This document shows, piece by piece, positions 1 through 8,562 of a stretch of DNA of 8,562 nt (its first letter is position 1; each line of letters opens with the position of its first letter). The notes beneath the pieces were generated by a model. It was given only the letters and a program-made list of their open reading frames with translations. It ran no database searches and had not been told where the DNA came from. The stretch covers positions 1-8,562 of the forward strand of contig JAHYJR010000001.1 of assembly GCA_019429005.1 (NCBI GenBank), given 5' to 3'. The position numbers and the translations under genes are program-made. This DNA comes from Nanobdellati archaeon. GTDB taxonomy: Archaea; EX4484-52; GLR71.

Positions 1-252
1 AAAATATATGAACCGATTTCAAAAGGAATGAAAAGTCCGGCAACAGAACAAAAAACAAAAGATACATTCAGTCCAACAGAACATAAAATATATGAACCGA
101 TTTCAAAAGGAATGAAAAGTCCGGCAACAGAACAAAAAACAAAAGATACATTCAGTCCAACAGAACATAAAATATATGAACCGATTTCAAAAGGAATGAA
201 AAGTCCGGCAACAGAACAAAAAACAAAAGATACATTCAGTCCAACAGAACAT
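1..252 (+). repeat. 84-bp perfect tandem repeat (three copies, continuing left)
   Basis: Units at 1-84, 85-168 and 169-252 are identical base for base and in frame (28 codons each). Unit 3 joins a diverged continuation at 253. The window edge cuts the array, so the true copy number is unknown and may be miscounted in a short-read assembly. Confidence 0.95.
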
Positions 253-558
253 AAAACATTCGAACCAATGAGTAGACCGGGAGCACCGAAAAGTATAGTA
301 ACGGGATATAGAATGAGTGATGAAATAAAAGGATCATTCAATCCAGAACCCGAAACAGGAACTATGTTATCAAACTTAATAAACAAACTTACAGGTAAAA
401 ATGAAGAAAATACGTTCAGTCCAACAGAACACAAAATATATGAACCGATTTCAAAAGGAATGAAAAGTCCGGCAACAGAACAAAAAACAAAAGATAAAGA
501 TAACACAGATAGAGTCCTAGCAGAATTAAACGTAACTGCAGACAGAAAAAAAGAATAG
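1..558 (+). CDS. Low-complexity tandem-repeat protein, 5' end outside window (partial)
   Basis: The frame is open from base 1, so the gene starts to the left; an ATG at 28 is only an internal Met that recurs in each repeat. About 185 codons are visible. The visible protein begins with three identical 28-residue units. Each unit splits into two related 14-residue halves, TFSPTEHKIYEPIS and KGMKSPATEQKTKD, which share an SP-x-TE-[HQ]-K core. A diverged stretch (about residues 85-137) follows, with related F-x-P motifs (TFEPM, SFNPEP). A fourth near-perfect copy comes next, then a charged tail ending DRKKE. There is no membrane segment or cysteine. The composition (K, E, P, S, T) suggests an extended or disordered protein. 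I do not recognise the family. The repeats are identical at DNA level, which implies recent duplication. A hairpin plus T-run follows the stop. Confidence 0.8.
   Translation, partial: KIYEPISKGMKSPATEQKTKDTFSPTEHKIYEPISKGMKSPATEQKTKDTFSPTEHKIYEPISKGMKSPATEQKTKDTFSPTEHKTFEPMSRPGAPKSIVTGYRMSDEIKGSFNPEPETGTMLSNLINKLTGKNEENTFSPTEHKIYEPISKGMKSPATEQKTKDKDNTDRVLAELNVTADRKKE
411..496 (+). repeat. Displaced fourth copy of the 84-bp repeat
   Basis: This stretch repeats the array sequence with only two substitutions (acgttc for acattc, gaacac for gaacat). It is separated from the array by about 158 bp of diverged coding sequence and lies in the same reading frame. Its near identity despite the separation suggests gene conversion or a recent insertion of the diverged block. 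Confidence 0.9.
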
Positions 559-587
559 TCCTTTATAAATTAAAAGATAACTCAACA

Positions 588-642
588 TTAATGAACAGAA
601 CAAAAACAAGAACTCATAAGCCTGTTCATTAAATATTTTTTT
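588..642 (+). terminator. Hairpin plus T-run terminator after the repeat protein gene
   Basis: A perfect 11-bp inverted repeat (588-598, TTAATGAACAG, with 622-632) encloses a 23-base loop and is followed by seven T at 636-642. It starts 30 bases after the stop codon at 556-558. Archaeal termination needs mainly the T-run. The hairpin could also protect the 3' end of the mRNA. Confidence 0.65.
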
Positions 643-688
643 CTATTTAAAAAATAATTAAAGTCATATTATTTAACACATAACTATT

Positions 689-705
689 TAAGGTTTAATA
701 CCTTA
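689..705. promoter_or_regulatory. Short inverted repeat in the promoter region of the 240-aa gene
   Basis: TAAGGT (689-694) and ACCTTA (700-705) flank a 5-base spacer, between a possible TATA element (684-691, ctatttaa) and the SD at 718. The position suits an operator, but six bases per arm may be chance in A+T-rich DNA. The rest of the 559-728 gap holds the terminator and this promoter region and no other gene I can see. Confidence 0.25.
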
Positions 706-717
706 TAGTAACAGATT

Positions 718-723
718 AGGTGA
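718..723 (+). promoter_or_regulatory. Ribosome binding site AGGTGA, decides the ATG at 729
   Basis: AGGTGA matches the complement of the archaeal 16S rRNA 3' end and lies five bases before the ATG at 729. The GTG at 720 that would extend the frame by three codons is part of this SD, so it is not the start. Confidence 0.75.
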
Positions 724-728
724 AAATT

Positions 729-1451
729 ATGAATGATATTCTTAAAGCGCCATTAAAAGACGGGACTGGTTATATAAATCCTTATACATTGTATAACAAA
801 CCCTTAAAAGGTGATATGGGTGATTTCGATCCAAATTTAAGTGAAATTGATATACCCTTCGGACCGTCAGAAATTAAAAATTTAGGTCATTACAGAATTG
901 CGGACAAAGGTATAAATAGTAAATATCTTGAAAGTGGTTTAGGAACCGCAATTATATCTATGCTTAGAGATGCATTAAAAGCTGAAAAAGAATATAAATT
1001 AGCAATGCTATCAGTTGATATTATGCTAAAACCGGGTAATATGCCATCTGAAAAGATTATTGCTTTAGGAGATCCATTATTCTTGTCAGGTTACAGCCTA
1101 GACATACCAACACAACTTGGTAAATACATAGACAATAAAAGCACAAAAAATTATAATGAAAATGGTTTAACGTCATCAACTAAAAATTGGCTTAATCAAA
1201 CAACGCAATTCTCAAAAGATAATGAATTCCCAGCAGGTATCGCTTTTGTACCTATTGATAGAAATGATTATTTTGTAACTGGACTAAATCCAAACCCACA
1301 ACAAGGATTTGACCTTTGCTTAAAAGGTGCAAAATATGAACCCGTCGGAGGTAGATTAAGATTAGACAAAACGATTAAAAATATACAGATTATGGACAAC
1401 CCAGATACATTCGAATCAGATCTTTATGCAGAAATTAAAGGAGGTTATTAA
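729..1451 (+). CDS. Hypothetical protein, 240 aa, first gene of a two-gene unit
   Basis: I do not recognise this protein. It is soluble-looking, with no signal peptide or membrane segment. Its N-terminal third is rich in Gly, Pro and Tyr (for example GTGYINPYTLYNKPL and DIPFGPSEIK). A helical stretch lies near residues 65-90 (ISMLRDALKAEKEY), and the C-terminal half is mixed. There is one Cys. The ATG start is chosen because AGGTGA sits at the right distance upstream. The gene ends 1 bp before the next ATG, and its last codons (GGA GGT TAT) double as the SD of the 567-aa gene, so the two are almost certainly co-transcribed and translationally linked. The preceding gene is separated by a terminator, so this unit has its own promoter. 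No function is proposed. Confidence 0.85.
   Translation: MNDILKAPLKDGTGYINPYTLYNKPLKGDMGDFDPNLSEIDIPFGPSEIKNLGHYRIADKGINSKYLESGLGTAIISMLRDALKAEKEYKLAMLSVDIMLKPGNMPSEKIIALGDPLFLSGYSLDIPTQLGKYIDNKSTKNYNENGLTSSTKNWLNQTTQFSKDNEFPAGIAFVPIDRNDYFVTGLNPNPQQGFDLCLKGAKYEPVGGRLRLDKTIKNIQIMDNPDTFESDLYAEIKGGY
1438..1445 (+). promoter_or_regulatory. Strong ribosome binding site AAGGAGGT, decides the ATG at 1453
   Basis: Eight bases complementary to the 16S 3' end lie inside the last codons of the upstream gene, seven bases before ATG 1453. This rejects the ATG at 1426, which would lie before the SD. It is the strongest SD in the window and suggests high expression. Confidence 0.85.
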
Positions 1452-1452
1452 T

Positions 1453-3156
1453 ATGTCATTAAAATTAAGCTCAATAATAAATCCTACATACACTTCAAAC
1501 AATAGATTCCAACCAGGTTTAGATAACTATAAAAAAAATAGAGAATCTGATGGTTTACCTGTAGATTCAATTATTGCAGGAACAAATCCAAAATCAATAA
1601 CATATGTTAATGCAAAATGCCTTAAAGGTAAAAAATATCTTAATAAACGTAGATTAAATATAATAGAAAGTCTAGAAGATTGCGGTTCAGTTTATTTAGA
1701 TACATCATTTAACAAACTTGGACAAGAAGATGTTTCAGAATTAAAAGATTTAATCTATACCGTTGTACGTTCCGACTTTAATAAAAATTCAAAACATAGA
1801 CATAGTCCAATGCTTTATGAGTTTTTAGACCGAGATGGTAAAGCTATAGTTGCAATTGTAGATAGCATCTTTATGCAAGCTCCAGACACAGAACATCCAG
1901 GATCTCCATACACACAAAATACAGCTATGCAACTTGTTAATGGTTCTACAACAAAACATCTAGATGAAATTAATAGAAGAATCCAAGTTGAATCTGGTAA
2001 AACTGGAATGGGTCATGTATATTTATTAGAAATCGACCAAAACAAAACATTTTCTCCATTTACAAGATTTAATGAAGCAACAAAAAGACAAGAATTAATC
2101 ATTCAAGAATTTGATACAAAAGGAGATGGTATACATACTGAATTAAAATACAGCTTTTCAGGAAAAGCATATACTCCAGAACTTCAAAAAGGATGGAAAT
2201 TCAATATGGATGCTATGCTAAAAGCTGATGAACTTAAATTAGATCTTACGGAACTAAAAGAATATATCAAAGAAAACTCTGAAATCAGTGCAGATAATAT
2301 AACACCAGTAATTGAACAATTTGAAAATGATCTTGAAAAAATGAAAGAAACCGGAATTGCTAAGATCCCTGAAAGTTATACACAACTTCTTAACGCAAAA
2401 AAACAAATTAAAGCTGATGTTGAGACAAATATACTTAACAAAGAATATGAAGTTGATGAATTGCTTAGAATAGAAGAGCTCGAAGAGAAAAAGAAACAAG
2501 CAACTTCAGAGCTTAATATCAAAATAGGAAAATTAGAGATTCAAGAAAAATTAATTGACAAATATGAAACTTTAATTGAAGCAATTAAAGAACTCTCAGA
2601 AGAAGACAGCAATCTAAAAACTATAATTGACACATATCAAGAACTTAAAGATAAAACTGAACATGCAGAAGTTATTGATAGTGATTTAGAAACAATTATA
2701 GAAAACGCATCTAGAGATACACTCAACAGATCTGTAGAGGTTGATATATATAATACAAGAAAAACCCTAGAAATATATAGCGAAGATTTCGATATAACAT
2801 CTATACTAGAGAATACGGGCATTATATCAAAAATAGATAATATTGAATTTAAACTTGATGAAAATTCTTTAGAGTCTAGTATTGAAGCATATGAATTATC
2901 TAAAGAACTAACAGGAAAGGATCTTAATAAAATCGCATTAACAGTAGAAATAAAGAAAAAATCAATCCCTGTAGCTGTATGTGATGAAACTGAACTTTTA
3001 GATGATGAAAACGATATAGATCCTGTAGAAGAAATCTCTGATAATGACTTAAAAAACTTAATTATTAAAGACAATGCTATAGGGGTCGCTGTAGACGATG
3101 AGACAGAAGTTACAGACGAAGGTAAAACAGATAGTATTATAGATATTATTAAATAA
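1453..3156 (+). CDS. Hypothetical protein, 567 aa, globular N-terminus with long coiled coil and acidic duplicated tail
   Basis: I do not recognise this family. Residues 1-250 look globular, with mixed strands and helices (for example ITYVNAKCLKGKKYL near 49-63 and KAIVAIVDSIFMQAPD near 130-145). Residues from about 260 to 500 are almost continuous charged helix rich in E, K, L and I, typical of coiled coil. The tail carries an internal duplication: IPVAVCDETELLDDE (505-519) and IGVAVDDETEVTDEG (543-557), each followed by acidic residues. No signal peptide or transmembrane segment is visible. Three Cys are scattered and not arranged as a metal site. The SD AAGGAGGT fixes the start. It follows the 240-aa gene by 1 bp, so the two products may act together, perhaps as a structural or scaffold pair; that is inference only. 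No T-run follows the stop, so transcripts may read into the next gene. Confidence 0.85.
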   Translation: MSLKLSSIINPTYTSNNRFQPGLDNYKKNRESDGLPVDSIIAGTNPKSITYVNAKCLKGKKYLNKRRLNIIESLEDCGSVYLDTSFNKLGQEDVSELKDLIYTVVRSDFNKNSKHRHSPMLYEFLDRDGKAIVAIVDSIFMQAPDTEHPGSPYTQNTAMQLVNGSTTKHLDEINRRIQVESGKTGMGHVYLLEIDQNKTFSPFTRFNEATKRQELIIQEFDTKGDGIHTELKYSFSGKAYTPELQKGWKFNMDAMLKADELKLDLTELKEYIKENSEISADNITPVIEQFENDLEKMKETGIAKIPESYTQLLNAKKQIKADVETNILNKEYEVDELLRIEELEEKKKQATSELNIKIGKLEIQEKLIDKYETLIEAIKELSEEDSNLKTIIDTYQELKDKTEHAEVIDSDLETIIENASRDTLNRSVEVDIYNTRKTLEIYSEDFDITSILENTGIISKIDNIEFKLDENSLESSIEAYELSKELTGKDLNKIALTVEIKKKSIPVAVCDETELLDDENDIDPVEEISDNDLKNLIIKDNAIGVAVDDETEVTDEGKTDSIIDIIK

Positions 3157-3184
3157 AAAATCAAATAATATCTAAATAGAAATC

Positions 3185-3193
3185 TATAAATAA
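3185..3193 (+). promoter_or_regulatory. TATA-like element before the five-span membrane protein gene
   Basis: TATAAATAA is centred about 37 bases before the ATG at 3226. Archaeal transcription usually starts about 25-28 bases past the TATA centre, predicting a start near 3212-3217. That point lies between the two arms of the hairpin at 3193-3227. Confidence 0.45.
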
Positions 3194-3227
3194 TAAGGCA
3201 CCCAATATTAATTTACGGGTGCCTTAT
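3193..3227 (+). promoter_or_regulatory. Perfect 11-bp hairpin enclosing the SD and start codon
   Basis: ATAAGGCACCC (3193-3203) pairs perfectly with GGGTGCCTTAT (3217-3227) across a 13-base loop. The right arm contains the SD-like GGTG (3218-3221) and the first two bases of the ATG at 3226. In a read-through RNA from the upstream gene the ribosome site would be buried. An RNA started inside the loop would lack the left arm and stay open. No T-run follows, so a simple terminator is less likely. Confidence 0.6.
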
Positions 3228-3936
3228 GTATACTACTTCTGGATATAACAGTTTTGGTGGCGGTTTTGCCTTCGAAAATGTACTTGACCAACTGTATTCT
3301 ATAGGTTTTTTCAATATAGCTTTACCATTTATCATCGTTTATTCTCTAATATATGTACTTTTAAAAAATTCAAGTTTATTTAGTAGCAGTCCAAACATAA
3401 GCAAGATTATATCAATGTCCCTTGCAGCATACACAGTTATATTCAGTCCATTTGCAGTATACTTAATGGCAATGACAGCAAAACTAGGTGTCATATTAAT
3501 CGGTATTCTGTTCATACTGATGATAGGCACAATGGCCTTTTCATTTAAAAAAGATGATAATCATAAAGATGGCAACCCATTCATAAACTTCTTATCGGGT
3601 CACTCACAAGCTATAATCATATTTGTATTCGTCGTAGGCGGTCTAATGTTCGCAAGCAGCGGTGGCCTTGTAATCTTTTTCACATATTTTGGCCTGCCCC
3701 TATATTATCTAAATGGCCTATTCGGTTTCATAATAGTTATTGGTGTATTCTGGTGGATGCTCTCACCAAGCAAAGAAGAAGAAGCAACACAACTGTTTGG
3801 ACAATACCAACGTGAAATGAAAGAACAGAATAAAAACTTTGGTGGTGGTGTTAGCGGATACCCACACGTATTTATAGGAGGACAACCAGGTTTCCAAGGA
3901 CAGCCAACTTTTGATGATTGGAAGAAAAATCGATAA
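3226..3936 (+). CDS. Polytopic membrane protein, 236 aa, DPANN-type hypothetical
   Basis: About five membrane spans are visible, near residues 29-47, 61-83, 87-106, 127-153 and 157-179. A Gly-rich N-terminus (FGGGFAF) precedes them. The C-terminus is hydrophilic, with KEEE near 183-186 and a GGG...GGQPGFQGQP segment. The opening pattern FENVLDQLYSIGFFNIALPFIIV...LLKNSSLF resembles, from memory, a multispanning protein family common in Woesearchaeota-like genomes, whose role is unknown to me. The ATG at 3226 is the only plausible start before the first span. It has a weak SD (GGTG) inside a hairpin that may control translation. The stop at 3934-3936 directly abuts the stop of the convergent metalloprotease gene. 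A pilus- or secretion-type membrane role is possible but not shown. Confidence 0.85.
   Translation: MYTTSGYNSFGGGFAFENVLDQLYSIGFFNIALPFIIVYSLIYVLLKNSSLFSSSPNISKIISMSLAAYTVIFSPFAVYLMAMTAKLGVILIGILFILMIGTMAFSFKKDDNHKDGNPFINFLSGHSQAIIIFVFVVGGLMFASSGGLVIFFTYFGLPLYYLNGLFGFIIVIGVFWWMLSPSKEEEATQLFGQYQREMKEQNKNFGGGVSGYPHVFIGGQPGFQGQPTFDDWKKNR
3925..3929 (-). terminator. Candidate minus-strand T5 tract after the metalloprotease gene
   Basis: AAAAA on the plus strand (Lys-Asn codons at the end of the membrane protein gene) gives five T on the minus strand, 8 bases after the metalloprotease stop. T-runs alone can terminate archaeal RNA polymerase. A run of five is weak. Confidence 0.3.
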
Positions 3937-4644
3937 TTAACAATAATTTAAACTTTTCTTTTTGGGGTTTAGTACTACATAACCCGTATCTTTTGCAACA
4001 ACCTTATTTGATTCTTGATAAGCTGTATTATTTATACTACCCATCCAATCTTGTATCTTATCAACAGTATCTGTATAACCTAATTTAACCATCTCAGCCA
4101 TTGCTTCACCATGAACTTTACCCTCAGATGCAGCCCAATTTGCCAAATGACCAACCTCATGAAGACCTATTCCAAGATATTTTTTAGCAAGATCTTTAAC
4201 AGTTCCAGCTGATTTATAAATACTATCTGCATACGCATGATTTATTACAACAGAACTATCCTTTTTTGATGAATATCCCGGTGTACCCATATCAGATTCC
4301 CCTGTCAGATGGTCACTTTCATCATAACTGAAAGCAAGCTTCTTCAATTTAACACCCCTTTTCTGAGCATAACCTGTAATTAATGCAGATGCAACCTTCG
4401 CCGCCTGTCTATACGTTTCAAAAGGCGTCAAACTAGGATCTTCTTTGATAGAATCAATACCTTTATATGACGCGAGCACAGGCAAATCCAACTCACCTAA
4501 ATACGAATTATCAGACCCGTTAACATTAGAATTTAAATAATTTTGCCCTTTATCTTTAGCTCGATATGCAACCGTACCAATACCTAAAACAAAAAGTACC
4601 GCTGAAAACATAGATAATATGCTAAACAAGATAAATTCAATCAT
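3937..4644 (-). CDS. Membrane-anchored HExxH zinc metalloprotease-like protein
   Basis: The protein is about 235 aa. One N-terminal hydrophobic helix (about residues 3-25, IEFILFSILSMFSAVLFVLGIGTVAY) acts as an anchor or uncleaved signal, followed by a polar linker. The zinc motif HEVGH is at 162-166, with a likely third ligand downstream in HGEAMAE (178-184), so gluzincin-like chemistry is plausible, but the third ligand is not certain. A hydrophobic segment ahead (YLGIGL) fits the active-site helix. I cannot place it in a named peptidase family. The catalytic part probably lies outside the membrane; topology is inferred. An alternative ATG at 4650 adds two residues. I prefer 4644 because a TTTAAA element lies about 25 bases before it, as in the other leaderless genes here. 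It follows the DUF357 gene with a short gap. Confidence 0.8.
   Translation of the reverse strand: MIEFILFSILSMFSAVLFVLGIGTVAYRAKDKGQNYLNSNVNGSDNSYLGELDLPVLASYKGIDSIKEDPSLTPFETYRQAAKVASALITGYAQKRGVKLKKLAFSYDESDHLTGESDMGTPGYSSKKDSSVVINHAYADSIYKSAGTVKDLAKKYLGIGLHEVGHLANWAASEGKVHGEAMAEMVKLGYTDTVDKIQDWMGSINNTAYQESNKVVAKDTGYVVLNPKKKSLNYC
3954..3963 (+). terminator. Candidate plus-strand T-rich terminator after the membrane protein gene
   Basis: TTTTCTTTTT begins 17 bases past the stop at 3936. It is formed by the complement of the Lys codons near the end of the convergent metalloprotease gene, so one gene's coding end supplies the other's terminator. Confidence 0.45.
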
Positions 4645-4665
4645 AAACATTAATAGGATTTAGTT

Positions 4666-4680
4666 GTTTAAATGTGATTG
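4666..4680 (-). promoter_or_regulatory. Candidate promoter of the metalloprotease gene
   Basis: On the minus strand this reads CAATCACATTTAAAC. TTTAAA (4672-4667) is centred about 25 bases before the ATG at 4644, as expected for a leaderless transcript. The 14 bases AATCACATTTAAAC recur exactly on the plus strand at 8541-8554. Confidence 0.45.
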
Positions 4681-4686
4681 TATACA

Positions 4687-4929
4687 TCACCAATCAACAA
4701 TACCTTGATCTTTCCCAATTTCTAGCCATGACCATGCCCAAATTACAGCTTCAAACGCACGAACATAATCTTTTTTATCTAAGAAATAATCCGTATCTTT
4801 GATATATGCATTCACATTTTTTAAGAAATCAGAACCTTTAACATCCATAGACTTAGCATCACTTGAAATCGCTTTTGCTTTCTCAAGCCATTTAAGTGTC
4901 TCAGAGATTAACTGTTTTTCAGTATCCAT
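4687..4929 (-). CDS. DUF357 family small archaeal protein
   Basis: This 80-aa all-helical protein matches my memory of the archaeal DUF357 family, whose signature is a Tyr-Phe-Leu segment followed by DY-x-RAFEA and an aromatic helix. Here the signature reads DTDYFLDKKDYVRAFEAV then IWAWSWLEIGKDQGI (residues 45-77). The length suits the family, which is conserved across archaea with no established function that I know of. The ATG at 4929 is preferred over TTG at 4938, because TTGAT at 4938-4934 sits where other genes here place their SD. Only five bases separate the upstream stop (4935-4937) from this ATG, so it is co-translated with the anchored coiled-coil gene. The metalloprotease gene follows and appears to have its own promoter. 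Confidence 0.8.
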   Translation of the reverse strand: MDTEKQLISETLKWLEKAKAISSDAKSMDVKGSDFLKNVNAYIKDTDYFLDKKDYVRAFEAVIWAWSWLEIGKDQGIVDW

Positions 4930-4934
4930 AATAA

Positions 4935-5258
4935 TCAATTATCTGAAAGATCTTTTTCAACAGAATCAATCTTATTTTCAATAATCAGATTCTCAATCTT
5001 CTGTTTTATTGGATTATGAGAATCCATATGATCAATTTCCTCAAGAACAGATTCTTCTTTAGTTATAATTTTCATCTCATCTGAAACTTCCTTTTCAATT
5101 TTTTCCTCTTCAGCTTTAATTTGTTCAAGTACAACTTCAATTTTGTTATTCATTTCAACAATATTATTATCAAGACTTATAATCCGTTTAAGACCATATA
5201 ATATACCGACAAGAGCACCAAAAGCTGCACCAATAATAAATGTTAATACAAAATTCAT
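4935..5258 (-). CDS. Small membrane-anchored coiled-coil protein, 107 aa
   Basis: An N-terminal hydrophobic, Gly/Ala-rich helix (residues 3-22, FVLTFIIGAAFGALVGILYG) is followed by Lys-Arg, which suggests that the rest faces the cytoplasm. Residues 29-75 and 85-105 are charged helix with heptad-like spacing, likely coiled coil. It has no catalytic motif and no recognised family. The ATG at 5258 is chosen because AAGTGAT lies four bases upstream; the in-frame GTG at 5267 is part of that SD. The gene leads a probable two-gene unit with the DUF357 gene, downstream of dphB by about 54 bases. A TATA-like element at 5290-5298 may drive it. Confidence 0.75.
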   Translation of the reverse strand: MNFVLTFIIGAAFGALVGILYGLKRIISLDNNIVEMNNKIEVVLEQIKAEEEKIEKEVSDEMKIITKEESVLEEIDHMDSHNPIKQKIENLIIENKIDSVEKDLSDN

Positions 5259-5262
5259 TAAA

Positions 5263-5269
5263 ATCACTT
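5263..5269 (-). promoter_or_regulatory. Ribosome binding site AAGTGAT, decides the ATG at 5258
   Basis: AAGTGAT on the minus strand, with four bases before the ATG, is in the same register as the SD at 8502-8506. The GTG at 5267 inside it should not be read as the start. Confidence 0.6.
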
Positions 5270-5289
5270 AAAACTAAATTAGGCAACAA

Positions 5290-5298
5290 TAATATAAA
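5290..5298 (-). promoter_or_regulatory. TATA-like element before the anchored coiled-coil gene
   Basis: On the minus strand it reads TTTATATTA, centred about 36 bases before the ATG at 5258. It predicts a very short leader that begins around the SD. It lies in the gap after the dphB stop (5313-5315). Confidence 0.45.
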
Positions 5299-5312
5299 TA
5301 GATTTAGATTTT

Positions 5313-6053
5313 TTATTGTTTAAACATACTAACAAAATCCAACTCCTGAAAATGAAGTTCTGACGGTATAATTATAGAATGTGGCATTTTTCCAAAATCA
5401 AGACCTATAAGATCCTTAATTATTCCATAATAAATATTACTACCATTTCCAAGATGTGCAAGAACAATAATTTCAGTCTCTTCAGATAAGATTGCTTTTT
5501 TCTTTATACCTTCCAGCTCAAGAAAAAGCTCCATTGCACAATTAGCACTCATACCGATATCAAGAAGTGCGAGTGTGTGTGCTTTAATGCTTAGATTGTC
5601 AAAAATCATATCATATGCGGATGTTGGAAAATAATTCTCTTTAGGAAACGGTATTGACACGGTCTTTCCAAATTTGTAAAGATGTAAACCAGACTCAGCA
5701 ATTGCGGAAAATATAGATGATGCATGTATTATTTCAACAGAAATTCCTTCTTTTCTTACCCTATATACAATATCAGAATGCGTAGTTGCTGAAAGCGGAT
5801 CGCCACCAACAATAAAAGCAACATCTTCGCTCTTTGCCCTTTCAAAAACAATATCTTTATCTTCAACGTCAGCACGATCAAGGACGATTACCTGTTTACC
5901 AATTAATTTTTCAAGATTCTTTAAATCAAGATCAACGGGACAGGTATAAAACTCAGCAAACACAGTCTTAGATTTTTTACATGCATCAAGACCATTAATG
6001 CTTATATCTTTCTCATTACCTATACCAAGACCAATAATATACAATTTTGCCAT
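5313..6053 (-). CDS. dphB: Diphthine synthase (diphthamide pathway methyltransferase)
   Basis: The enzyme transfers methyl groups from S-adenosylmethionine to the aminocarboxypropyl side chain of a modified histidine in elongation factor 2, the second step of diphthamide synthesis. The 246-aa protein fits the tetrapyrrole-methylase fold family of about 250-265 aa. Visible motifs in order are LYIIGLGIGNEKDIS (4-18), FAEFYT (32-37), GGDPLSATTHSD (83-94), HASSIFSAIAESGL (110-123), YKFGKTVSIPFP (126-137), HTLALLDI (159-166) and MPHSIIIPSELHFQELDF near the C-terminus. All match the archaeal DphB pattern I know. The start MAKLYIIG at 6053 is chosen over 6068 because the protein begins right before the first strand and a TATA-like element lies about 28 bases upstream. 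No SD is seen, so it is probably leaderless. It is divergent from trm5. Confidence 0.95.
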   Translation of the reverse strand: MAKLYIIGLGIGNEKDISINGLDACKKSKTVFAEFYTCPVDLDLKNLEKLIGKQVIVLDRADVEDKDIVFERAKSEDVAFIVGGDPLSATTHSDIVYRVRKEGISVEIIHASSIFSAIAESGLHLYKFGKTVSIPFPKENYFPTSAYDMIFDNLSIKAHTLALLDIGMSANCAMELFLELEGIKKKAILSEETEIIVLAHLGNGSNIYYGIIKDLIGLDFGKMPHSIIIPSELHFQELDFVSMFKQ

Positions 6054-6105
6054 ACAAGTATTAATCAAACCAAATCATTTTAAGATTAACTGTCAATATT
6101 ACTTT
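6054..6105. promoter_or_regulatory. Divergent promoter region of dphB and trm5 with one shared TATA-like element
   Basis: The 52-bp spacer holds a single clear TATA-like core, TTTTAAG at 6078-6084 (TTAA at 6080-6083). Its centre lies about 25 bases before the trm5 ATG and about 28 before the dphB ATG. Neither gene has an SD, so both transcripts are probably leaderless and start at or next to the ATG. Confidence 0.5.
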
Positions 6106-6933
6106 ATGAAATTTATTGATGCATTAAAAGAACATCTTACTGAAGATGAGCTTAAACATGTAAACAAAAGTTTTGAAGTCCTTGGAGATATTGCAATAAT
6201 TGATATCCCTGAAGAATTAGAAAATAAAAAAATATTAATCGCAAAAACACTCAAAGACCTTAACAAGCACATAAACATAATCCTACGAAAAACAGGAGAT
6301 ATCACAGGAACCTACCGTGTGGGCACATATGAAACTTTAATTGGAGACCGAACTGAAACAATATGCAAAGAAAACGGTTGCAGATTTAAAGTGGATCCAA
6401 CAAAAACATATTTCTCATCAAAAATGGGCTATGAAAGACAAAGAATTACAGATACAATTAAAGATAAGGAAAATATACTTTGCCTGTTTGCCGGCATCGG
6501 TCCATACCCTATAAATATCGCAAAAACTAAGGATGTAAACATAACCGCAATTGAAATAAATCCAGAATCAGTTGATTTTTTTAAAGATAATATAAAATTA
6601 AACAAAGTTGAAGGTAAAATAAATATAATCCTTGGTGATATCACAGATGAATTACCAAAAATAAAAAAAACATTTGACCGCGTTCTTATGCCCGCACCAA
6701 AAGATGCAGAAAATTTCATTAAAGAGGCACTTGAAAAAGTTAAAATTGGCGGTATTATAAACATATACGGTTTTAAAACACAGGAAAAATTAAAGGAATA
6801 TCCAACAGAAATAACTGAAAAATGCAAAGAATTTGGATATGAAATTGAAATAATAATGTCAAGAGACTGTGGTAACATGGGCCCTTATTGTTATCGAGTG
6901 GTCTGTGATTTTAAAGTTCTATCGGGACCTTAG
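6106..6933 (+). CDS. trm5: tRNA (guanine(37)-N1)-methyltransferase Trm5, short form
   Basis: Trm5 methylates N1 of G37, next to the anticodon, using S-adenosylmethionine, and so prevents +1 frameshifts. The 275-aa protein shows the D2 start SFEVLGDIAIIDIP (22-35), GTYRVGTYETLIG (68-80), the ENGCRFKVDPTKTYFSSKMGYERQRI segment (89-114), the SAM loop LFAGIGPYPINIAK (127-140), AIEINPES (148-155), GDITDEL (177-183), DRVLMPAPKDA (191-201) and the C-terminal CGNMGPYCYRVVCDFKVL (255-272). The usual N-terminal D1 domain (about 60 residues in the Methanocaldococcus enzyme) is mostly missing. The ATG at 6106 is preferred; an upstream in-frame ATG at 5998 would overlap dphB and add residues unlike the family. 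The stop codon (6931-6933) lies inside the tRNA-Pro gene. Confidence 0.93.
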   Translation: MKFIDALKEHLTEDELKHVNKSFEVLGDIAIIDIPEELENKKILIAKTLKDLNKHINIILRKTGDITGTYRVGTYETLIGDRTETICKENGCRFKVDPTKTYFSSKMGYERQRITDTIKDKENILCLFAGIGPYPINIAKTKDVNITAIEINPESVDFFKDNIKLNKVEGKINIILGDITDELPKIKKTFDRVLMPAPKDAENFIKEALEKVKIGGIINIYGFKTQEKLKEYPTEITEKCKEFGYEIEIIMSRDCGNMGPYCYRVVCDFKVLSGP

Positions 6934-6997
6934 AGTAGTTTGGTCATCATTCCAGCTCGGGGGGCTGGCGACCCGTGTTCAAATCACAGGGGTCTCA
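6924..6997 (+). tRNA. tRNA-Pro, anticodon GGG (no encoded CCA)
   Basis: A full cloverleaf of 74 bases can be drawn. The acceptor stem pairs GGGACCT (6924-6930) with GGGTCTC (6990-6996), seven pairs including two G-U, with A6997 as discriminator. The D-loop carries AGTTTGG (6937-6943). The anticodon stem CCAGC/GCTGG (6952-6956/6964-6968) closes the loop TCGGGGG (6957-6963), so the anticodon is 6959-6961 and G37 is 6962. The variable loop is CGAC. The T arm is CCGTG/CACAG around TTCAAAT (6978-6984). Odd points are C at position 33 instead of U, an A-A mismatch at 11:24, and a C-A mismatch in the T stem. A one-base shift would read CGG, also Pro. Its first ten bases are the end of trm5. T-runs at 7014-7029 may terminate it. 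Confidence 0.85.
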
Positions 6998-6999
6998 TT

Positions 7000-7005
7000 A
7001 AAAAA
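7000..7005 (-). terminator. Minus-strand T6 tract after the small HExxH gene
   Basis: Six A on the plus strand give TTTTTT directly after the stop codon (7006-7008) of the minus-strand gene, before the tRNA is reached. This would stop antisense transcription into tRNA-Pro and trm5. Confidence 0.45.
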
Positions 7006-7437
7006 TCACATAATTTTTACTGTTTTTTTATATGTCTTTGGACGCTTAGACCATGACTCAGGACGTTTATAACCCAAACGTGCAGCAAATTTATCAGCAT
7101 CAACTTCAAGCTTATCCGCATCATCATGTTCCCAATTACGTCCTTGAAGAACATGACCAAATTCATGTGCAATTACATATTTCAATTCAATTTCAGAAAT
7201 ATCTTTAGGAATTGTAAGCTGCATCACTTTAAATCGTCCTTTAGGATTTGGAAAATGCATAACCTGACCTAAAGCTTCCTTATGTAAAACCAACAGATAC
7301 AAATTATAAGTACATTCCTTATATTCGCTAGCATTCATAGAAGACAATACATCTTTCAATGCTTTTTGAACATTAAAATAAAATTGTATACTCGTTTGAG
7401 ACTTAATAAATTGATCAATCTTCTTTTCTAATACCAT
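7006..7437 (-). CDS. Small soluble HExxH metallopeptidase-like protein, IrrE/ImmA-like
   Basis: The 143-aa protein has the zinc motif HEFGH at 91-95, preceded by a hydrophobic helix (ELKYVIA). EVDADKFAARLGY follows at 111-123, with Glu111 the likely third zinc ligand. The spacing HExxH-x15-E and the ExxADxFAxxL helix resemble the IrrE/ImmA (DUF955, M78) group. Those proteins often cleave repressors or antitoxins, but no DNA-binding domain or partner repressor is seen next door, so the substrate is unknown. The N-terminal part is helical and the C-terminus is Lys-rich (KRPKTYKKTVKIM). No membrane segment is visible. No SD precedes the ATG, but TTATATAA lies about 25 bases upstream, so the mRNA is probably leaderless. 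The gene is convergent to trm5/tRNA-Pro, 8 bases from the tRNA end. Confidence 0.8.
   Translation of the reverse strand: MVLEKKIDQFIKSQTSIQFYFNVQKALKDVLSSMNASEYKECTYNLYLLVLHKEALGQVMHFPNPKGRFKVMQLTIPKDISEIELKYVIAHEFGHVLQGRNWEHDDADKLEVDADKFAARLGYKRPESWSKRPKTYKKTVKIM
7014..7029 (+). terminator. Plus-strand T5 and T7 tracts ending the trm5/tRNA transcript
   Basis: TTTTT (7014-7018) and TTTTTTT (7023-7029) lie 17-32 bases past the tRNA. They are the complements of Lys codons at the C-terminus of the convergent gene (KKTVKIM). Consecutive T-runs are typical archaeal terminators. Confidence 0.55.
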
Positions 7438-7457
7438 GTTTTTATTTTAGGTAGATA

Positions 7458-7465
7458 TTATATAA
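7458..7465 (-). promoter_or_regulatory. TATA element before the small HExxH gene
   Basis: TTATATAA is centred about 25 bases before the ATG at 7437, within the 37-base gap after the upstream stop (7475-7477). It points to a separate leaderless transcript rather than simple read-through from the 340-aa gene. Confidence 0.55.
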
Positions 7466-7474
7466 ATAAATATC

Positions 7475-8497
7475 TCAAGAATCAACCCGATTTAAATCTC
7501 TAATCTCACGAGATATTAGCGATGTCTTTGTATTATTTAAAATAACTTTTTCATTCATCCCAACAAGATTATCAAATGCATTTTTTTTAGTTTTATATTT
7601 ATTATAAGATTCATCAAGCTTAGCTTTAAGTTCAATTTCAGTTTCCTTAAACATATCAATCTTTGATGAAAGTTCAAAATAAATTTTCATCAATTCGCCA
7701 ATATTTTTATGTATATTTCGCACAGTCTCAACAATCGTATCACAATCAGGATTAAGAATATCATCTTCAATAACATAAATCTGTTTTCTCATAGATGCCA
7801 TAAAAAAATCAAAGGTTTCTTCCTCACTTGGAAAAGTTAAATAATCAATTTCGTAAGAAACATTATCCAACGGTTCTTTTAAAAGATCTTTGTCTGATGA
7901 AATAACAACTTCTTGTATAGAATCAACAACTGAATTTTCATTAAAACCATTCTCTAATCTAGTTATATTTTTATCATCATCTATTTTACGTTTCAAAATA
8001 TCATTAAAAGCGTCCAAATTAACTTGAACTGCTTTTTTAACTTCATCTCGTTTAAATGAAAAGGCATCAATCTTTATCCTTATAGAATCATATTCACATT
8101 TAATATCATTAAACGTAAAACTTGTTTTTTTAAGATCTGGCATAAATTTATCTTTAAAACTTTGTATATGTCGCTCGGCATTTTTAGCAATACCCTTATC
8201 AGGAATCATACAATCTGGAAGCTTTTTTTCAGCATTTGAAAATAACCAGATTTTATCTAAAAAATTCTTATTTTTTAATAATCTATTTTTTTCGTTAATT
8301 AGCTCAATATTTTCAAGCTCAATTTCATGTTCATCTTTAATATCTTCATTTTTAAACAGAATAATACCAATATTATTCATCACATGTCTCGCTAACATAT
8401 GAGATTGTCCTTGTCGCTTACTATCTGCAAGAATCGCAAGAGAGATAAATCCAAATATAACAGATAAAAATATTTTTAAAATAACAATATCAACCAT
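7475..8497 (-). CDS. Membrane-anchored coiled-coil protein, 340 aa
   Basis: I do not recognise this protein. An N-terminal hydrophobic helix (residues 3-24, DIVILKIFLSVIFGFISLAILA) is followed by a basic, polar stretch (DSKRQGQSHMLARH), which predicts a cytoplasmic body. The rest is mainly helical and highly charged, with likely coiled coil near 55-80 and 270-320. A middle part of mixed character holds DCMIPDKGIAKNAERHIQSF near 94-113. No catalytic motif is seen. The ATG at 8497 is chosen because GTGAT lies four bases upstream; the in-frame GTG at 8506 is part of that SD. Its design, one anchor plus a helical body, parallels the 107-aa gene at 4935-5258, though I see no clear sequence match. 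It may be a scaffold or spacer protein at the membrane; this is inference. Confidence 0.8.
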   Translation of the reverse strand: MVDIVILKIFLSVIFGFISLAILADSKRQGQSHMLARHVMNNIGIILFKNEDIKDEHEIELENIELINEKNRLLKNKNFLDKIWLFSNAEKKLPDCMIPDKGIAKNAERHIQSFKDKFMPDLKKTSFTFNDIKCEYDSIRIKIDAFSFKRDEVKKAVQVNLDAFNDILKRKIDDDKNITRLENGFNENSVVDSIQEVVISSDKDLLKEPLDNVSYEIDYLTFPSEEETFDFFMASMRKQIYVIEDDILNPDCDTIVETVRNIHKNIGELMKIYFELSSKIDMFKETEIELKAKLDESYNKYKTKKNAFDNLVGMNEKVILNNTKTSLISREIRDLNRVDS

Positions 8498-8501
8498 TTT
8501 T

Positions 8502-8506
8502 ATCAC
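8502..8506 (-). promoter_or_regulatory. Ribosome binding site GTGAT, decides the ATG at 8497
   Basis: GTGAT on the minus strand, with four bases before the ATG, is in the same register as the SD of the 107-aa gene. It explains the apparent GTG start at 8506. Confidence 0.55.
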
Positions 8507-8523
8507 ATCTAAAACAAAGAGTC

Positions 8524-8534
8524 TTATATTATTT
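8524..8534 (-). promoter_or_regulatory. TATA-like element before the 340-aa gene
   Basis: The minus strand reads AAATAATATAA, centred about 32 bases before the ATG at 8497. It suggests a very short leader carrying the SD. The call is weak because the surrounding DNA is A+T rich. Confidence 0.35.
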
Positions 8535-8540
8535 GTCCTA

Positions 8541-8554
8541 AATCACATTTAAAC
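8541..8554 (+). promoter_or_regulatory. Possible divergent promoter for a gene beyond the right edge
   Basis: AATCACATTTAAAC is identical over 14 bases to the candidate promoter of the metalloprotease gene (minus strand 4679-4666), here pointing right. If it works the same way, a start codon would lie about 25 bases past TTTAAA, just outside the window. Confidence 0.35.
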
Positions 8555-8562
8555 GTTATTAT

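Follow-up and report, generated by a model that had tools for sequence, protein, structure and literature searches.

The stop codon of a trm5-family gene lies within the gene for tRNA-Pro(GGG), a probable substrate of the encoded enzyme, in a genome belonging to the Nanohaloarchaeota, and this arrangement raises the question of whether the overlap couples enzyme supply to substrate supply or is a product of gene packing. The window, by which we mean the whole stretch of 8,562 nucleotides that was analysed (GenBank assembly GCA_019429005.1, contig JAHYJR010000001.1, positions 1 to 8,562), comes from a genome of 1.08 Mb in 15 contigs that is 93.6% complete; its named relatives are MAGs of Nanohaloarchaeota/Nanohalarchaeota. 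Comparing the ORF listing with the ARAGORN tRNA call gave an overlap of 10 nt (6924-6933, + strand), known from one metagenome-type assembly, the single genome of its genus among those compared. The ORF (5998/6106-6933, +) ends with the codons GTT CTA TCG GGA CCT TAG. The last three of these, with one base before them, make up the GGGACCT 5′ acceptor strand and bases T8-A9-G10 of the tRNA, the stop TAG (6931-6933) being tRNA bases 8-10. The tRNA gene spans 6924-6997 (+) and is intronless, with no encoded CCA, the anticodon GGG at 6959-6961 and G37 at 6962. A preliminary description of this locus, which had placed the trm5 stop inside a tRNA-Pro carrying G37, was therefore correct on both points. 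TAG at bases 8-10 is common among tRNAs with A9, and since most such tRNAs have it, a frame entering the tRNA in the same register stops there. The product has a C-terminus just 2-3 residues longer than those of its relatives (VLD*, VLN*, VLSKD*), so that the protein is native in length.

The gene itself (6106-6933, +; 275 aa) was confirmed at the family level as a TRM5/TYW2 methyltransferase, with a match to Pfam PF02475 of 155.6 bits (cut-off 28) and the Trm5b structure 5yac as its best solved-structure relative (E 8e-70). It encodes the sole full-length TRM5/TYW2 protein in the genome (157 bits, the next own-genome match being 40.4 bits). Neither of the marks of the Trm5b subfamily was found in it: the N-terminal D1 domain of Trm5b/Trm5c is absent, the match to the Trm5b/Taw22 models starting only at their position 73-77, and the NPPY motif of Trm5b, whose Asn positions G37, is replaced by PAPK, with MPAPK occurring in 8/8 aligned Nanohaloarchaeal proteins. 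The Trm5a/Taw22 enzymes of Nanoarchaeum equitans and Pyrococcus abyssi are similar in that Pro replaces Asn265 (PTPK there, PAPK here) and D1 is often absent, and N. equitans, like the window genome, has a single Trm5 (PMC7761594, PMC5024318). The window protein differs from them in that its top NCBIfam scores are divided between Trm5b (196) and Taw22 (194.5), both under cut-off. Taw1 (Wyosine_form) is also present in the genome. By analogy with N. equitans, the window Trm5 is probably a dual m1G37/imG2 enzyme of the Trm5a/Taw22-like kind, and since no other full-length family member occurs in the genome, tRNA-Pro is one of its likely, if unproved, substrates.

We then compared the locus with those of related genomes. 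trm5 was detected in 27 of the 34 genomes of the order, and a class-level search added no genome beyond those of the order. A same-strand tRNA-Pro(GGG) was found downstream of trm5 in 13 other genomes, distributed over families f1, f2, f4 and f6. In 11 of these the two genes were directly adjacent, with gaps of 7, 9, 12, 12, 12 and 12 nt in the sister genus g3 (six genomes, G002-G007), 31 nt in G015 (f2), and 28, 38, 57 and 103 nt in G018, G033, G028 and G027 of f6, respectively. The other two had opposite-strand gene(s) in gaps of about 1.0 kb (G001) and about 2.2 kb (G011), and an apparent intron interrupted the T loop of the G011 tRNA. The trm5 stop preceded the tRNA in all 13 of these linked genomes and lay inside it in none, so the overlap is private to the window genome. 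The genes were not adjacent in G009, G010, G012, G013, G014, G016, G019, G021, G022, G024 and G026, and no tRNA-Pro adjoined trm5 in the loci of Archaeoglobi, outside the clade. On the trm5 tree the linked state requires at least four to six changes, which fits, although not uniquely, an old linkage in the clade that was lost in several families. Thus the adjacency in relatives on which the preliminary description had asked for a comparison does exist, but many relatives are unlinked and the overlap recurs in none. The divergent gene dph5 (diphthine synthase; 5313-6053, −) is also conserved beside trm5 in many relatives (f1, f3, f6 and further out), and the linkage is therefore not specific to enzyme and substrate.

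Two of these loci carry further tRNA genes. In G027 (L044/L121; L044 from 2174), a tRNA-Pro(GGG) interrupted by introns in its D and T loops stands immediately before a second tRNA-Pro, apparently CGG and cut by the contig end, forming a trm5-tRNA-Pro-tRNA-Pro cluster. In family f5, which has no tRNA-Pro next to trm5, an intron-containing tRNA-Ile(UAU) was observed 36 nt downstream of trm5 (L110 of G022, minus strand, about 3112-3223).

Whether the two genes of the window share a transcript, the condition that the preliminary description had set on its idea, was assessed from transcription and processing signals. No terminator-like T run was found between trm5 and the tRNA, and a trm5-tRNA transcript would meet its first plausible archaeal terminator in a T-rich stretch at 6998-7030 (+), with runs TTTTT and TTTTTTT at about 7013-7029. 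When the positions from -48 to -24 upstream of the genome's 32 own tRNAs were compared with a fixed TATA consensus, the window tRNA was among the worst matches and lacked a TATA-like box at the usual spacing; the worst of the 32 was tRNA-Phe, the second in a tRNA tandem. In this AT-rich genome, a de novo motif search upstream of the tRNAs recovered no TATA motif. The lack of both a suitably placed TATA-like box and a terminator between the genes makes co-transcription likely, and together with the inherited adjacency these signals suggest that trm5 and tRNA-Pro(GGG) probably share a transcript. Some doubt comes from genus g3, in which the final trm5 codons contain a TATA-like GATATAAA about 33 nt upstream of the tRNA, while its window counterpart TTTTAAAG is just about 10 nt from the tRNA. 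This suggests that the g3 tRNA may have its own promoter, and co-transcription is hence not certain. Absence of RNase P, which would void any idea of cleavage, was rejected, as an archaeal RNase P RNA was found in the window genome (164.8 bits); cleavage at the tRNA 5′ end is thus possible.

We consider it probable that the overlap is an ordinary case of a densely packed mRNA-tRNA pair combined with lineage-specific loss of a short spacer, and it looks like a packing event of an already known kind. trm5 and tRNA-Pro(GGG) are neighbours by inheritance in Nanohaloarchaeota and probably share a transcript, with the tRNA situated towards the 3′ end of the trm5 mRNA. In the window lineage the short spacer and the old trm5 stop would have been lost, a step and an order of events that we infer by parsimony from the relatives, and the frame would then end at the TAG of tRNA bases 8-10 with a harmless gain of 2-3 residues. 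RNase P and a 3′ endonuclease would free the tRNA; this cleavage would destroy the mRNA end, but the nascent RNA may be translated first, making a tuned coupling unnecessary. Packing is supported by the tight ORF-tRNA spacing that is ordinary in the window genome, where, among the fetched loci, tRNA-Ala(GGC) and tRNA-Pro(UGG) each begin 1 nt after an unrelated ORF. These cases, at L025 1499-1501 for tRNA-Pro(UGG) and L004 1498-1500 for tRNA-Ala(GGC), lie 1 nt past ORF stop codons, and of the two ORFs, named by eye, one is DUF192-like and one metallophosphoesterase-like.

A very unlikely alternative is the one put forward in the preliminary description, in which cutting at the 5′ end of the tRNA deprives the trm5 mRNA of its stop and so couples the supply of enzyme and substrate. 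If the genes are co-transcribed, a cut at 6923/6924 would strip GGA CCT TAG and leave the mRNA without a stop; the RNase P RNA, the lack of either a stop or a terminator before the tRNA, and the old neighbourhood of the two genes are all compatible with this. However, archaeal ribosomes can translate nascent RNA ahead of cleavage, a ribosome terminating at 6931-6933 would hold off cleavage by masking the acceptor and D arm, and Trm5 already made would persist afterwards. One RNA could therefore yield both products in sequence, and the claim that a given RNA gives the tRNA or complete enzyme, but not both, was overstated. In the other linked genomes trm5 stops upstream of the tRNA (by 7-103 nt or about 1-2 kb), so tRNA processing there would leave trm5 intact, and with no overlap in any of them selection for a switch is unsupported. 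The existence of unlinked genomes, which the preliminary description had itself named as contrary to its idea, and the doubt over the function of the tRNA also stand against it. An even more remote extension is that, on a shared transcript, tRNA excision kills the trm5 frame while unmethylated tRNA-Pro(GGG) slips at CCU-UAG to give feedback at the stop. It is conceivable in that this same tRNA decodes CCU, the final sense codon, but it is speculation beyond the arrangement of the sequence. Assembly or consensus errors could in principle have produced both the overlap and the mismatches of the tRNA, as this is a draft assembly of an uncultured lineage with unique substitutions where seven relatives are invariant. 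We regard such errors as highly improbable, since the locus lies on a single 287 kb contig with ORF and cloverleaf of normal length, and the changes are substitutions scattered over the tRNA, with no indels.

A more serious possibility, which we rate somewhat below even, is that the tRNA of the window has recently become a pseudogene and trm5 uses a stop inside a dead tRNA gene, the spacer deletion having taken the promoter spacing and the stem pairs having decayed. It concerns the function of the tRNA and is compatible with packing. The tRNA is not a chance call, being homologous to the tRNA-Pro(GGG) genes at the same place in relatives; it scored 71.7 bits (E 3e-15) against the R1 covariance model and has a cloverleaf, the GGG anticodon and the conserved tertiary positions, but not the fully paired D and T stems of the relatives. 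The pairs G10.A25, A11.C24 and C50.A64 are broken and are intact in relatives. The tRNA keeps 18/22 stem pairs, compared with 21-22 of 22 in seven relatives, and has the lowest count among the 32 own tRNAs. Relative to the spliced tRNA of G033 (67/74 identical), three of the 7 differences break pairs, one gives G-U and none is compensated. As random placement of 7 changes would be expected to break 2.7 pairs, constraint appears to be relaxed, and the missing TATA-like box at the usual distance points in the same direction. On the other hand, the identity of 67/74 to a tRNA of another family, despite proteins about 50% identical, argues for constraint until recently, and T8, A14, G15, G18, G19, TTC, the anticodon, G37 and A73 are all intact. 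CCU and CCC make up 45.7% of Pro codons (83 ORFs in the fetched loci), similar to relatives with intact genes and showing no depletion. No second tRNA-Pro(GGG) was found by pattern and covariance model searches in the 93.6% complete genome, although a missed copy is possible because intron-bearing genes escape ARAGORN and the tRNA list is incomplete. On balance, a functional tRNA is slightly favoured over a recently dead one. If the D stem of the sole tRNA-Pro(GGG) is damaged, the question arises of how CCC and CCU are decoded in the window genome.

The silence of Rfam RF00005 on the window tRNA was discounted as counter-evidence, for the intact relatives L073 and L075 were also missed. C-to-U editing that would mend the two A.C mismatches was rejected, as G10.A25 would stay unmended and nothing here supported it. 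Non-canonical introns, some >100 nt, were observed in the D loop (about 16/17) and T loop (about 59/60) of Nanohaloarchaeal tRNA-Pro(GGG) genes (loci L033, L034, L036-L038 and L040-L042); the window gene has none, having lost them or never had them.

The arrangement shares features with several known systems. In clusters of the pylT-pylS type a tRNA gene adjoins the gene for an enzyme acting on that tRNA, as in the window, although tRNA-Pro is just one among several G37 substrates and the linkage is limited to some Nanohaloarchaeota. Archaeal mRNA-tRNA co-transcripts such as that of Thermococcus kodakarensis, with tRNA-Lys in the 5′-UTR of TK0306, resemble the window locus in that a protein gene and a tRNA are probably on one transcript from which the tRNA is freed by processing (PMC4247193). 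The window tRNA differs in following the ORF on its 3′ side, in sharing bases with its stop codon and in being a molecule on which the encoded enzyme probably acts. In mitochondrial tRNA punctuation (PMC5576253, PMC3471875), protein genes abut or overlap tRNAs, frames end at or inside a tRNA, and cutting of the tRNA would take bases of the stop codon, as in the window. Mitochondria can complete such stops by polyadenylation, a repair not known for the window locus. The locus illustrates how a striking overlap of enzyme and substrate genes can arise via spacer loss in a neighbourhood that was inherited. More durable is the conserved adjacency of trm5 and tRNA-Pro(GGG) in part of the Nanohaloarchaeota, which makes co-transcription of enzyme and substrate testable.

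Other features of the window were also observed. Two small HExxH proteins, at 3937-4650 and 7006-7437 (−), flank the dph5-trm5-tRNA block with the motifs HEVGHLA and HEFGHVL, respectively, the second showing a weak likeness to M48/M78 metallopeptidases. At 1-540, an ORF that is open at the contig start contains near-identical direct repeats with a 28-residue unit (IYEPISKGMKSPATEQKTKDTFSPTEHK).
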